Shown: piece after piece, positions 32,219-35,433 of the stretch
How the letters are laid out: every line of letters starts with the position of its first letter
How positions within the stretch are numbered: the stretch's first letter is position 1
DNA from: Streptomyces mirabilis
GTDB taxonomy: Bacteria > Actinomycetota > Actinomycetes > Streptomycetales > Streptomycetaceae
NCBI RefSeq assembly: GCF_039503195.1
Contig: NZ_JBCJKP010000001.1
Location: 7,440,001-7,504,000 of the forward strand
Direction of reading: 5' to 3'
Length of the DNA: 64,000 nt
Translations under genes and position numbers: made by a program
The notes under the pieces: model-generated
Told to the model about the DNA's origin: nothing
Databases searched by the model: none
Seen by the model: only the letters and a program-made list of their open reading frames with translations

Positions 32219-32614
32219 CTAGGCCGTCACCGGGAGACCGGCCGCCTTCCACGCCTGGAAGCCGCCCACCAGGTCGGTCGCCCGGTGCAGTCCGAGCTGG
32301 TGGAGGGAGACGGCGGCGAGGCTGGACGCGTACCCCTCGTTGCAGACCACCACGACCCGCAGATCATGGCTCGTGGCCTCCGGGGCGCGGTGGCTGCCCT
32401 GGGGGTCGAGCCGCCACTCCAGTTCGTTGCGCTCGACGACGAGGGCGCCGGGGATCAGTCCGTCGCGCTCGCGCAGGGCGGAGTACCGGATGTCGACGAG
32501 GAGGGCTTCGCCGGCCTGTGCGGCGGAGTACGCCTCCTCGGCCTCCACCCGGTCGAGTCCCTCGCGGACCCGTTCCAGCAACGTGTCGATGCCCACCGGG
32601 CGGGGTGCGCTCAC
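32219..32614 (-). CDS. Single-domain rhodanese-like sulfurtransferase
   Basis: 131 residues. It has the single rhodanese fold with active-site Cys in VVCNEGYASSL, substrate loop CNEGYA and the terminal GGFQAWKAAGLPV typical of the fold. It transfers sulfane sulfur to thiophilic acceptors. GTG overlaps the stop of the cysteine dioxygenase gene (GTGA), so the two are coupled, suggesting the rhodanese handles persulfide or sulfur species arising from cysteine catabolism. Confidence 0.9.
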   Translation of the reverse strand: MSAPRPVGIDTLLERVREGLDRVEAEEAYSAAQAGEALLVDIRYSALRERDGLIPGALVVERNELEWRLDPQGSHRAPEATSHDLRVVVVCNEGYASSLAAVSLHQLGLHRATDLVGGFQAWKAAGLPVTA

Positions 32615-33153
32615 TGCCAGTCCTCCGGACGCTCGACGTGCTCCAGGCGCAGCACCTGCCCCGTGCGGCTGTAGCGGCGGATCCGGGGCAGCGGCGGGTA
32701 GTACGCGTGGACGGAGATCGCGTGCTCCTCGGTGGACTCGTTGAGCACCTCGTGCACGTGGTGGCGGCCGAAGGAGCGGCCCTGGCCGGCCGGCATCCGA
32801 CGTTCGCGGTCGACGTCCTCGGAGAGTTCGAGGGTCTTCCAGCCGTCGGTGGGCAGGCGGGCGGCGAGCGAGTACTCCTTGAGTTCGCCCGCGGCGGCGA
32901 CGAAGGCGCCGACCGAGTCGGCGTGATCGTGCCAGCCGGTCCCGGTGCCGGGGGGCCAGCCGATGAGCCAGGCCTCGCTGCCGCCGGGGCCCTCCAGGCG
33001 CACCCAGGTGCGGCCCTCGGGGTCGAGGGGGAGGGAGGCGATCAGTTCGGCGTCGGCGGCGGTGCGGCGCACGAAGTCGAACAGGTCGGCCTGGGCGGGG
33101 GCCTGGACCGGTGCGGAGGCGGAAGGCGTGGTGGAGGGGGTGGACACAGACAC
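32611..33153 (-). CDS. Cysteine dioxygenase (cupin)
   Basis: 180 residues. Cupin motif 1, WHDHADSVGAFVAAAGELKE, and motif 2, GRHHVHEVLN then SVHAYYPPL, supply the three-His iron site (about residues 75-78 and 130). The enzyme oxidises L-cysteine to cysteine sulfinate. GTG 33153 (VSVSTPS) is chosen because AGGAC lies about 10 nt upstream; a longer frame to 33309 would run through the leader peptide region in a different frame. The gene follows the Cys-rich leader ORF at 33236-33283 and is coupled to the rhodanese gene. Confidence 0.88.
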   Translation of the reverse strand: MSVSTPSTTPSASAPVQAPAQADLFDFVRRTAADAELIASLPLDPEGRTWVRLEGPGGSEAWLIGWPPGTGTGWHDHADSVGAFVAAAGELKEYSLAARLPTDGWKTLELSEDVDRERRMPAGQGRSFGRHHVHEVLNESTEEHAISVHAYYPPLPRIRRYSRTGQVLRLEHVERPEDWQ

Positions 33154-33235
33154 GGGTACCGTCCTGGGCGTTCGCGTGGGTGCGCGCGGCAGCCGACAGG
33201 GAGGGGCGGCGCGCGGGGAGAGAACAGCTGCGAAT

Positions 33236-33283
33236 TCAGCAGGACGGGCGACACACGCAGCCCGCGTAGCGGACGAGGTCCAT
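33236..33283 (-). CDS. Cys-rich leader peptide, putative attenuator of the cysteine dioxygenase operon
   Basis: 15 codons reading MDLVRYAGCVCRPSC, three of them Cys, ending 82 nt before the cysteine dioxygenase start. GGAGGG lies 5-6 nt upstream of the ATG. Short Cys-codon upstream ORFs are known in mycobacteria as cysteine-responsive attenuators of sulfur genes, and similar putative leader peptides are annotated in Streptomyces. The position before a cysteine-degrading enzyme fits sensing of cysteinyl-tRNA supply. Translation is not proven. Confidence 0.65.
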   Translation of the reverse strand: MDLVRYAGCVCRPSC

Positions 33284-33329
33284 ATGGACCCTCCGCCACA
33301 GGCGCACACAGGTGTCGGTCACGATCCGG

Positions 33330-33358
33330 AGTACACCATGGCGGTCCGGGCCGGTCAA
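33330..33358 (-). promoter_or_regulatory. Candidate promoter of the leader/cysteine dioxygenase operon
   Basis: On the minus strand, TTGACC (33358-33353) and TGTACT (33335-33330) are spaced 17 bp, about 47 bp upstream of the leader ATG. The -35 is good and the -10 imperfect. Confidence 0.4.
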
Positions 33359-33364
33359 CTCACT

Positions 33365-33389
33365 GTCACCATGTGGACCATCTGGTGAC
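33365..33389. promoter_or_regulatory. Inverted repeat upstream of the cysteine operon promoter
   Basis: GTCACCA (33365-33371) and TGGTGAC (33383-33389) form a perfect 7-bp dyad with an 11-bp spacer, just upstream of the -35 hexamer. This is activator-site geometry. Confidence 0.4.
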
Positions 33390-33481
33390 CGGGGGTGCCG
33401 CGCTGGCCGTGGCTCCGCCCCCCCGGACGGGTTCGGCTACCTGAGCCTGGTGGTCCGGGACGGGCCGGACCACCAGGGTCG

Positions 33482-35317
33482 TCAGGTCCTACTGGCCGCG
33501 GTCTCCGCTTCCGCCTCCGCCGTGGCGGGGCCGCCCAGTGTCGTCTCGGCCGCCGCGTACAGGTCGGCCGGGCGCACCCCGCTCAGCGCGGTGACCAGGT
33601 GGCCGTCGGGGCGCACCAGGAGCACGGTGTGTGCCGCCGCGCCGGGATAGCTCTCGGCGACCAGCAGCTCGGCGCGGTGCGGCAGCGCGGTCACGGCGGC
33701 CGCGAGCCGGGGCATGATCCCGGCCGTGACCCAGTGCTTGCGCGCCCACACGCCCGTACCCGGAGCGATCAGTACGACGAGCAGCACCCCGCGACCGAGC
33801 CGCTCCCGCAGCTGTACGAACGAGCCGTCCTCCGCGGTCACGCGTACGTCGACGACCGGCGCACCGGGGGCCGTGTCCACAGGCGTCGCCGATTCGGTGT
33901 GCGCGGGCGCGAGCGGCGAGTCGGCGTACACCCCCGGCGCACCCAGCGGGCCGCGTCCCAGGTGGCCGTCCGTGAGCAGCGCGTCGTGGCCACGGGCCGA
34001 CCCGGGGACGTACGAGCGCAGGCCTCCGCCGCTGCGCAGCAGTGGCAGCGCCTGGTCGGCGGCGCGCAGCCGGGCGGCGACGACGGCCCGCCGCTCCGCC
34101 TGGTAGCTGTCGAGCAGTGCCTCGTGCGGGCCGTGGTGCCAGGCGAGCGCGAGTTTCCAGGCGAGGTTGTCGGCGTCCCGCAGGCCCTCGTCCAGCCCCT
34201 GGGTGCCGAGCGCGCCGAGCAGGTGCGCGGCGTCCCCGGCGAGGAAGACCCGGCCGGACCGCCAGCGGCGGGCGAGGCGGTGGTGGACGGTGTGGACTCC
34301 GGTGTCGAGCAGCTCGTACGGGGGTGTGGAGCCCGCGTTCCAGCCCGCGAGGGTCTCGCGGATGCGCGCCACCAGCAGGTCGGGCGTGACCAGGTCCTTG
34401 CCGGGCGGCAGCAGCCAGTCCAGCCGCCACACGTCGTCGGCGAGGGGGCGCGCGGTCACCTCCCCGCTCGCGGGGCCCGACGTCCGCCACGGAGGCATCC
34501 GGTGCAGCAACGCCTGGCCGGGCCAGGGGAGTTCCGTACGCAGCGCCGCCACGGCGTATCGTTCGACGGCTGTACGTCCGGGGAAGCGGATGTCCTGGAG
34601 CTTGCGCACGGTCGAGCGCGGTCCGTCGCAGCCGACCAGGTAACTGCCGCGCCACCACGTGCCGTTGGGGCCGCGGGTGTGCGCCGTGACGCCCGAGGAC
34701 TCCTGCTCGATCGAGTCGAGGCGGCTGCCCACGGCGACCTTGATCAGCCGCTCGTGGAGGATGGCCTCGCGCAGGGCGCCGGTCAGCGCGTGCTGGGTTA
34801 GGTGCAGCGGGGCGGGTGCGTGGGCGCCGTCGGAGTCCTGCGCGTCCCCGGTCGCGCCGACCCCGGCGCTTTTCTGGCGCTGCGCGCTTCCCTTCGGGTT
34901 CCGCGCACTTCCCTCGGAGCGCTGGGCGCCGCTCGCCGAGCCGTGCGCGCCGCCCCCGGAGGCCTGCGCACCGCTTTCCGAGCCGTGCGCCGCGCCCCCG
35001 AGGCCTCGCAGATCCGATGCGAAGTCCAACGGGTCCGTGCCGGATCCCCCGGCATCGAATCCGATCTCGCGCATCACCTGCTTGCGTCGCATCGACCGCC
35101 ATCCGGCCCAACGGAAACCGGCATCGGTGAGGGGCGGGCCCGTCAGGCGCTCGACGAGCGCGGCGGTGTCCTCGCGCAGCACCACCGTTCGCGCGAGCCG
35201 TTGTTCGTCCTTGCCCGGCCCCTCGTCGAGGACCACGCAGGGGACCTCCTGGCGGGCCAGCGCAAGGGCCAGCGTGAGGCCCACGGGCCCCGCGCCGACG
35301 ATGATCACCGGGTCCAC
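33482..35317 (-). CDS. FAD-dependent aromatic monooxygenase (PheA/TfdB, PHBH fold)
   Basis: 611 residues. The FAD-binding Rossmann motif VIIVGAGPVGLTLALAL lies at the very N-terminus. The DG motif is YLVGCDGPRSTVRK, and the GD motif is GRVFLAGDAAHLLGALGTQG (cut). A C-terminal thioredoxin-like domain occurs as in phenol hydroxylases. It hydroxylates an aromatic or polyketide substrate with NAD(P)H and O2; the substrate is unknown. GTG 35317 places the Rossmann motif at residue 5; a TTG at 35407 would add 30 residues. Between the Rossmann and DG motifs is a Gly/Ser/Ala-rich insert of about 65 residues (AAHGSESGAQ, GAHGSASGAQ repeats, about 34800-35005) absent from normal family members. Confidence 0.85.
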   Translation of the reverse strand: MDPVIIVGAGPVGLTLALALARQEVPCVVLDEGPGKDEQRLARTVVLREDTAALVERLTGPPLTDAGFRWAGWRSMRRKQVMREIGFDAGGSGTDPLDFASDLRGLGGAAHGSESGAQASGGGAHGSASGAQRSEGSARNPKGSAQRQKSAGVGATGDAQDSDGAHAPAPLHLTQHALTGALREAILHERLIKVAVGSRLDSIEQESSGVTAHTRGPNGTWWRGSYLVGCDGPRSTVRKLQDIRFPGRTAVERYAVAALRTELPWPGQALLHRMPPWRTSGPASGEVTARPLADDVWRLDWLLPPGKDLVTPDLLVARIRETLAGWNAGSTPPYELLDTGVHTVHHRLARRWRSGRVFLAGDAAHLLGALGTQGLDEGLRDADNLAWKLALAWHHGPHEALLDSYQAERRAVVAARLRAADQALPLLRSGGGLRSYVPGSARGHDALLTDGHLGRGPLGAPGVYADSPLAPAHTESATPVDTAPGAPVVDVRVTAEDGSFVQLRERLGRGVLLVVLIAPGTGVWARKHWVTAGIMPRLAAAVTALPHRAELLVAESYPGAAAHTVLLVRPDGHLVTALSGVRPADLYAAAETTLGGPATAEAEAETAASRT

Positions 35318-35433
35318 GGCGCGCGGCCCCCTGCCCGGAGCGGTGTCCTGAGGAACGGTCGGGAACAGGCAGTTGGAACGGGGTGCACGATCACAGAACG
35401 TATGCAACCCATTGCCGGTGCTTGCGTCAAGTG

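Follow-up and report, generated by a model that had tools for sequence, protein, structure and literature searches.

Mycobacterial polycysteine leaderless open reading frames (ORFs) were reportedly described by Canestrari et al. in 2020. Such ORFs are treated in PMC9031893, PMC13236596 and PMC9094748, and, according to PMC13236596, the genes behind them are regulated by translation attenuation; for mycobacterial cys leaders, PMC1262725 suggests the involvement of Rho. Translation attenuation through masking of the Shine-Dalgarno (SD) sequence is also described in PMC13236596, with reference to Ito and Chiba. In addition, an upstream ORF of Salmonella reportedly promotes the translation of a Mg2+ transporter, in a setting of ribosome-binding sites sequestered in structure (PMC8092293).

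The element analyzed here lies in the window, i.e., a 64,000-nucleotide stretch of Streptomyces mirabilis DNA, in which its Cys codons are named C5 (codon 5 of the ORF) and, counting from a histidine set as 0, C9, C11 and C15. It resembles the mycobacterial polycysteine ORFs in being short and probably leaderless, in carrying Cys codons, and in standing before a sulfur gene. However, its Cys codons are not contiguous (C9 and C11 are one non-Cys codon apart), its target is a cysteine dioxygenase, and it scores only 17.9 bits against NF042933 (Ms5788A Cys-rich leader peptide), below the cut-off of 45. As in the SD-masking attenuators outlined in PMC13236596, the position of the leader ribosome is predicted to expose or hide a downstream SD; unlike in such attenuators generally, the strand that does the masking is formed by the final sense codons of the leader itself, and the gate is predicted to fall between a pair of Cys codons spaced two positions from each other. 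The Salmonella system likewise involves an upstream ORF that aids downstream translation, but it differs in signal and organism, and no homology to it is claimed.

The downstream part of the locus consists of two genes:

32611..33153, minus strand: cysteine dioxygenase (CDO) gene with a GTG start, matching profile PF05995 at 167.7 bits (cut-off 23)
32219..32614, minus strand: rhodanese-like gene, matching profile PF00581 at 52.6 bits

The two profile matches uphold the first-pass annotation, which had placed a short Cys-rich ORF ahead of a cysteine dioxygenase and a rhodanese. The rhodanese start overlaps the CDO stop (GTGA). The nearest solved chains to CDO, 8qfr and 8qfl, are both named cysteine dioxygenase, and a comparison of the protein with NCBIfam matched no family; judged by its sequence, the product is a CDO_I cysteine dioxygenase with L-cysteine as its putative substrate. 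The upstream neighbor (window positions 33482-35407, minus strand) encodes a protein resembling FAD-dependent monooxygenases, into which a low-complexity Gly/Ser/Ala stretch is inserted.

Upstream of CDO, the following features define the leader itself:

33236..33322, minus strand: leader ORF of 28 codons, from GTG at 33322 to TGA, encoding MTDTCVRLWRRVHMDLVRYAGCVCRPSC; NF042934 family
33236..33283, minus strand: mini-ORF of the first-pass annotation, the 3' part of the leader, from ATG to TGA, encoding MDLVRYAGCVCRPSC
33267..33298, minus strand: hairpin P1, codons RRVHMDLVR, -20 kcal/mol in the window

The first-pass annotation had delimited a 15-codon ORF with three Cys codons. Such an ORF does exist on the minus strand, but its boundaries are not supported, as the frame is open upstream to GTG 33322, and the extension brings in a fourth Cys codon (33310-33308). 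The mini-ORF is thus real but probably misdelimited, and the conserved unit is the 28-codon ORF. In a set of 118 loci (the window, the 80 relatives and another 37 that are more divergent), the mini-ORF ATG begins with A in 102 loci, with G in 6 and with C in 10, the internal ATG being replaced by GTG or CTG/CTC in other species; the start codon of the full leader alternates between GTG and ATG among loci. The GGAGG that ends 6 nt ahead of the internal ATG, which had been read as a ribosome site, is part of the conserved hairpin P1 inside the 28-codon ORF, and the GGAGG/ATG pair is not supported as the translation start. P1 spans codons -4 to 5 and folds below -8 kcal/mol in 117/118 loci; the four positions with variation in over 10% of loci all belong to its loop or bulge, and two further positions, both paired, vary in 5/118. 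The structure of P1 therefore explains much of the leader’s synonymous invariance and also accounts for the GGAGG taken as a ribosome site.

The leader matches the NCBIfam family NF042934 (actinomycete ‘putative leader peptide’, cis_reg_atten) at 37.1 bits against a cut-off of 27, over positions 1-19 of 19, and Rfam covariance models run against 32900-33500 gave no match up to an E-value of 1. Further NF042934 members occur elsewhere in the window’s genome: one stands before an SfnG monooxygenase (above cut-off), others before sulfite/nitrite-reductase, sulfurtransferase and MoaD matches (below cut-offs), and some before genes with no clear sulfur link, e.g., a ROK-type regulator. The CDO class is distinguished from the other NF042934 leaders by GC replacing the usual SA before the canonical Cys, which creates the extra Cys C9, by the structured codon stretch P1, and by a leader end complementary to the SD.

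Among the CDO relatives, taken as the best 80 of 507 and all titled Streptomyces except one ‘Actinobacteria bacterium’, the leader is found upstream of CDO in 79/80. The one relative with an incomplete leader (L062) has apparent IS200/IS605 transposase sequence, recognized by eye, immediately upstream, behind which only the mini-ORF part, MDLARYAGCVCRPSC, is left. A covariance model spanning the leader end to the CDO start (R1) matches in 129/150 Streptomyces genomes; the 39 matches with the lowest scores were read, and behind 38 of them stands a CDO motif. All 20 listed R1-negative Streptomyces genomes (one further genome is unlisted) carry some PF05995 protein; a close CDO occurs only in G010 (148.7 bits; the others reach at most 70.8), and G010 carries the leader too. 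In a class-wide sample, R1 matches in 19/246 genomes, of which 18 are Streptomyces, and these coincide with the 18 genomes whose PF05995 match exceeds 150 bits; the single match outside Streptomyces (33.4 bits) was rejected as false, with neither leader nor CDO nearby. A family-wide sample contains a CDO match at E-values up to 1e-30 in 76/121 genomes (12/17 genera), and the leader pattern was matched in 36 of the 40 CDO loci fetched out of those 76, while three of the four pattern-negative loci show a similar stretch by eye and were left uncounted. Locus L139, left out of the leader counts for its truncated CDO (as was L153, the false match), presents a second leader copy (G119:C5:1092-2124) followed by a CDO remnant covering PF05995 positions 122-169 only. 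More distant CDO-like genes of other species, at L181, L184, L185 and L221, are preceded by NF042934-type leaders that lack C9. Such conservation, in combination with the curated-family match, speaks against the view that the ORF upstream of CDO arose by chance or is non-regulatory; that view, to which the purely sequence-based prediction of leader translation lends something, is considered extremely improbable.

Ahead of the leader, a promoter candidate is composed of two boxes:

33353..33358, minus strand: -35 box TTGACC, its TTGA preceding the leader start codon by 36 or 37 nt in 115/118 loci
33330..33335, minus strand: -10 box TGTACT, after a 17-nt spacer and 7 nt before the leader GTG

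A promoter had also been suspected in the first-pass annotation, and the TTGACC-17 nt-TGTACT arrangement at 33358-33330, with its nearly constant spacing from TTGA to the start codon, is promoter-like. Among the 117 loci for which a start could be located, the hexamer at -13 to -8 reads TGTACT in 78, TCTACT in 19, TTCACT in 10 and otherwise in the remaining 10. A generic consensus promoter scan listed nothing for the leader region, TTGACC/TGTACT included, and the call is based on comparative spacing rather than on that scan. As the conserved -10 box ends 7 nt before the leader start, the leader mRNA is probably leaderless, with a transcription start deduced from the sequence.

The Cys codons of the leader are conserved to different degrees:

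33308..33310, minus strand: C5, TGT, lineage-variable (Cys in 50/80)
33257..33259, minus strand: C9, TGC, Cys in most CDO-class leaders
33251..33253, minus strand: C11, TGT, the canonical Cys of the NF042934 family

In the close set of 80 leaders (the window and 79 relatives), C9 is Cys in 78 and C11 is Cys encoded by TGT in all 80, and both are Cys, C11 again as TGT, in 38/38 divergent Streptomyces leaders. The third Cys codon of the mini-ORF is less constant, with C15 being Cys in only 69/80 close and 29/38 divergent leaders; the lack of Cys-codon conservation by which the first-pass annotation could have been refuted is thus not seen at C9 and C11, two of its three Cys codons. C15 is less conserved as an amino acid, although its nucleotides fall in the segment that pairs with the SD. 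All 36 matched family leaders have TGT at C11; at position 9, 28 of them carry Cys, 6 Ala, 1 Ser and 1 Leu. C9 as the defining mark of all CDO leaders was accordingly rejected, being absent in 8/36.

Codon choice at the canonical Cys was scored in 38 of 40 NF042934 loci (L001-L011, L013, L227-L254) from the window’s genome and 12 other Streptomyces, using the stretch from the core onward only and, for the other genomes, top-scoring matches. The canonical Cys is TGT in 38/38, of which 9 are CDO-type and 29 are not, before varied downstream genes, whereas the non-canonical Cys codons in the same stretches are TGC in 35 cases and TGT in 3 (Fisher 3e-18, for leaders that are related rather than independent samples). 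The other family leaders scored carry the canonical UGU Cys at position 11 and no Cys at position 9. For comparison, 32 ORFs of the window contain 89 TGC and 18 TGT codons. C5 of the CDO leaders is mostly TGT as well (44/50); hence, UGU is not unique to C11. The invariant UGU points to decoding and thereby argues against a nascent-peptide arrest, in which the core RxxHxDLxRxxxxxC would stall the ribosome on a sulfur metabolite and the SD would open with the ribosome parked near C11. Such an arrest could explain why the core is common to leaders before unrelated genes, which is more than codon starvation by itself needs; nevertheless, conservation in the CDO class is about equal at the nucleotide and the peptide level, a pattern partly explained by P1, and arrest is judged quite unlikely.

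The end of the leader and the ribosome-binding site of CDO are related by complementarity, for which four segments are relevant:

33240..33247, minus strand: anti-SD segment CCGTCCTG, within the final Pro-Ser-Cys codons of the leader and complementary to the CDO SD
33230..33234, minus strand: inner helix 5' strand TTCGC, pairing with GCGAA
33171..33175, minus strand: inner helix 3' strand GCGAA, with variants TGATcCGC/GCGATCA and ACGC/GCGT seen by eye
33159..33166, minus strand: CDO SD CAGGACGG, identical in 81/81 loci

CCGTCCTG is the exact complement of CAGGACGG, which follows 53-131 nt downstream of the leader stop in 81/81 loci (L137, with no SD within 200 nt, was left out of the SD counts), and the resulting stem encloses a variable GC hairpin and the TTCGC/GCGAA helix. 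Counted over the two strands of the window (128,000 positions), CCGTCCTG is present 13 times, i.e., a chance of about 1% per 100 nt; shuffling the SD letters gives a median duplex energy of -7.9 with a 1% quantile of -17.0, against an observed median of -15.6. In one sequence alone, the complementarity is unusual, though not beyond the 1% level.

The pairing was followed through alignment A1, which holds 80 of the 81 sequences (L054 was omitted for its long insertion). The SD and inner stems pair in 96.0% of cells, compared with 31-45% when slid by 1-3 columns; a letter-shuffling control on A1 was uninformative because the 3' columns hardly vary. Within the 80 sequences of A1, no pair changes on both sides, so that covariation rests on few lineages. 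A wider set of 126 gapless rows includes 10 of the 40 family loci (7 from sister genera and 3 Streptomyces, chosen for a recognizable leader end and SD); three inserted-base loci were set aside, and L177, which is out of register, counts as one low-pairing row. Over these rows, 94.6% of cells pair, with all 8 pairs present in 88 rows and at least 6 in 125; pair 7 is U-A in 105, C-G in 3, U-G in 3 and unpaired in 15 (C.A in 11). L147, L149 and L157 have an extra A in the SD, and it faces a leader-end position that has changed from G to U. The pairing nucleotides are also kept despite peptide changes, as L163 ends in CSASC and L046 in CTRSC. As read from these alignments, the SD/anti-SD pairing persists in most relatives, with a few compensatory changes. 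At the same time, CAGGACGG is also present in certain other genera without being paired to their leader end; the SD may therefore be conserved for other reasons. RNAalifold alone on A1 returned a different 12-pair fold, which was set aside as weak and without covariation.

Several leaders diverge from this layout or recall it elsewhere. In genus g109 (L257, L272, L273, L275-L278, L287), leaders end in CTAAR and share CAC(C) stretches after the stop; G-rich ribosome sites of the form GGTGG are present in several of them, which may indicate a different anti-SD arrangement. In two other leaders of the window’s genome, codons at or after the canonical Cys look complementary by eye to the downstream SD at L005 (TCCTGTT/AACAGGA) and at L009 (GTCC..TCTG/CAGA.GGAC). 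Between leader stop and CDO, L135 bears a long C run in the loop of the SD-masking structure, which could be an assembly artefact.

The same stem bears on classical transcription attenuation, in which an intrinsic or Rho-dependent terminator would lie between the leader and CDO. Terminator-bearing leaders for other amino-acid genes are on record in Streptomyces and related bacteria (PMC8079986, PMC1262725); however, a terminator scan of 33100-33482 returned 0 intrinsic sites, and the stem ends in the SD rather than in a U tract. Transcription attenuation is regarded as very unlikely.

The effect of a leader ribosome on the stem was predicted by folding with an assumed 29-nt footprint and computing the cost of opening the SD. 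As a mean of 118 RNAs, the predicted cost is 8.3 kcal/mol with no ribosome and 8.1 with the A site on C9; positions further along are cheaper, with 5.0 for codon 10, 4.0 for C11, 2.9 for codon 13 and 3.3 for the stop. For 40 of the 118, the probability of an unpaired SD is correspondingly 0.06 with no ribosome, 0.05 at C9, 0.26 at C11 and 0.30 at the stop, so the SD is mostly paired elsewhere even with the ribosome at C11 or the stop. Averaged over the 118 loci, the SD is thus predicted to be hidden by default and at C9, and freer from C11 onward. For the window’s own RNA, the computed costs are 2.8 with no ribosome, 3.2 at C9, 4.3 at codon 10, 5.2 at C11, 0.2 at codon 13 and 0.8 at the stop; in this model, the contrast is weak and is reversed at C11, and the lock would open only beyond C11.

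Beyond the family membership, conservation, SD complementarity, invariant UGU and promoter spacing that the compared sequences display, the element is likely to attenuate the translation of CDO and rhodanese in a ribosome-gated manner. In the proposed mechanism, the mRNA, which is presumed leaderless, would start at the 28-codon leader ORF, and by default the last leader codons CCGUCCUG would pair with the CDO SD in a lock closed further by the inner UUCGC/GCGAA helix and the GC-rich hairpin. In the locked state, CDO and the translationally coupled rhodanese would be poorly translated. The lock would be opened only by a leader ribosome that has moved past C9 and stands between C11, with its invariant UGU, and the stop; the supply of charged tRNA-Cys would set the waiting position of leader ribosomes and, through it, the output of CDO, which would amount to cysteine sensing. 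The Cys-rich leader that the first-pass annotation had cast as an attenuator of CDO is, in this form, retained as a conserved leader of a known family whose SD-pairing RNA suits attenuation, while the ORF boundaries and the SD/ATG start proposed for it are not.

The direction of the response can be argued from both ends. On average, though not in the window’s own RNA, a ribosome at C11 is predicted to free the SD; by simple kinetics, more CDO would thus be made in scarcity, and C11 is the same codon used before sulfur-metabolism-type genes in the window’s genome. Higher CDO under limiting cysteine is slightly favored, at a confidence just short of even. Alternatively, and close to the logic suggested in the first-pass annotation, CDO may be made only when cysteine is ample: starved ribosomes would wait at C5 or C9 and be rescued with the SD still hidden, while ample cysteine would let leader ribosomes pass through and open the SD. 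More CDO with ample cysteine suits the expected physiology of a cysteine-degrading enzyme and is consistent with the averaged folds, in which an A site at C9 leaves the lock intact and C11 loosens it; it is given serious, if tentative, credence.

A kinetic simulation resting on assumed rates was used to compare the two directions, with drop-off set to 0.05/s at hungry Cys codons. With drop-off, the coverage of the lock in the window’s layout is 0.16, then 0.29 in moderate scarcity, and then 0.01 in deep scarcity, compared with a rise from 0.17 up to 0.87 in a C11-only leader, so that the contrast in deep scarcity (0.01 against 0.87) speaks for CDO being restricted to ample cysteine. However, the same run first rises in moderate scarcity, and without drop-off the result is opposite, with coverage climbing from 0.17 to 0.72 in scarcity. 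Removing C9 alone (0.15, 0.34, 0.04) hardly alters the curve and does not restore the family behavior, whereas C5 weighs more (0.17, 0.54, 0.12 upon its removal). Since the simulated outcome depends on drop-off, the sign is not fixed by the sequence, and C5 carries no less weight than C9. Also counting against a restriction to ample cysteine, C9 is missing in 8/36 orthologous leaders and in the four distant leaders mentioned above (L181, L184, L185 and L221), and C5 is Cys in only 50/80. The resemblance to the family, together with CDO orthologues and paralogues without C9, favors the family sign, i.e., more CDO in scarcity; physiology and the extra Cys codons favor the opposite sign of the first-pass annotation. 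C9 lies two positions ahead of C11 and would be slightly too far upstream to reach the SD lock; it is conceivable, though improbable, that the extra upstream Cys codons set the attenuator’s sign, with C9 (and C5 in many leaders) stopping ribosomes before the lock so that the operon would be off in deep scarcity and active only with sufficient cysteine. That CDO shows no response to cysteine is, likewise, held to be unlikely.

In the literature searched, which lies mostly outside subscription papers, no description of the SD lock of the CDO leader was found, nor any mention of NF042934, cis_reg_atten, or a ‘Cys-rich’ or ‘cysteine-rich leader peptide’; the type of switch is known, and its CDO variant and target appear to be new. 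If the attenuator reading is right, ribosome sensors of one class would control both sulfur acquisition and, in Streptomyces, cysteine breakdown, and the spacing of the Cys codons would allow a clear-cut test of whether the sign of a regulator can be reversed by codon position. Moreover, the invariant UGU among mostly UGC Cys codons makes the role of codon choice in starvation sensing directly testable. Should CDO rise in cysteine scarcity, the enzyme pair would resemble a sulfur-scavenging program, and its substrate would need to be re-tested.
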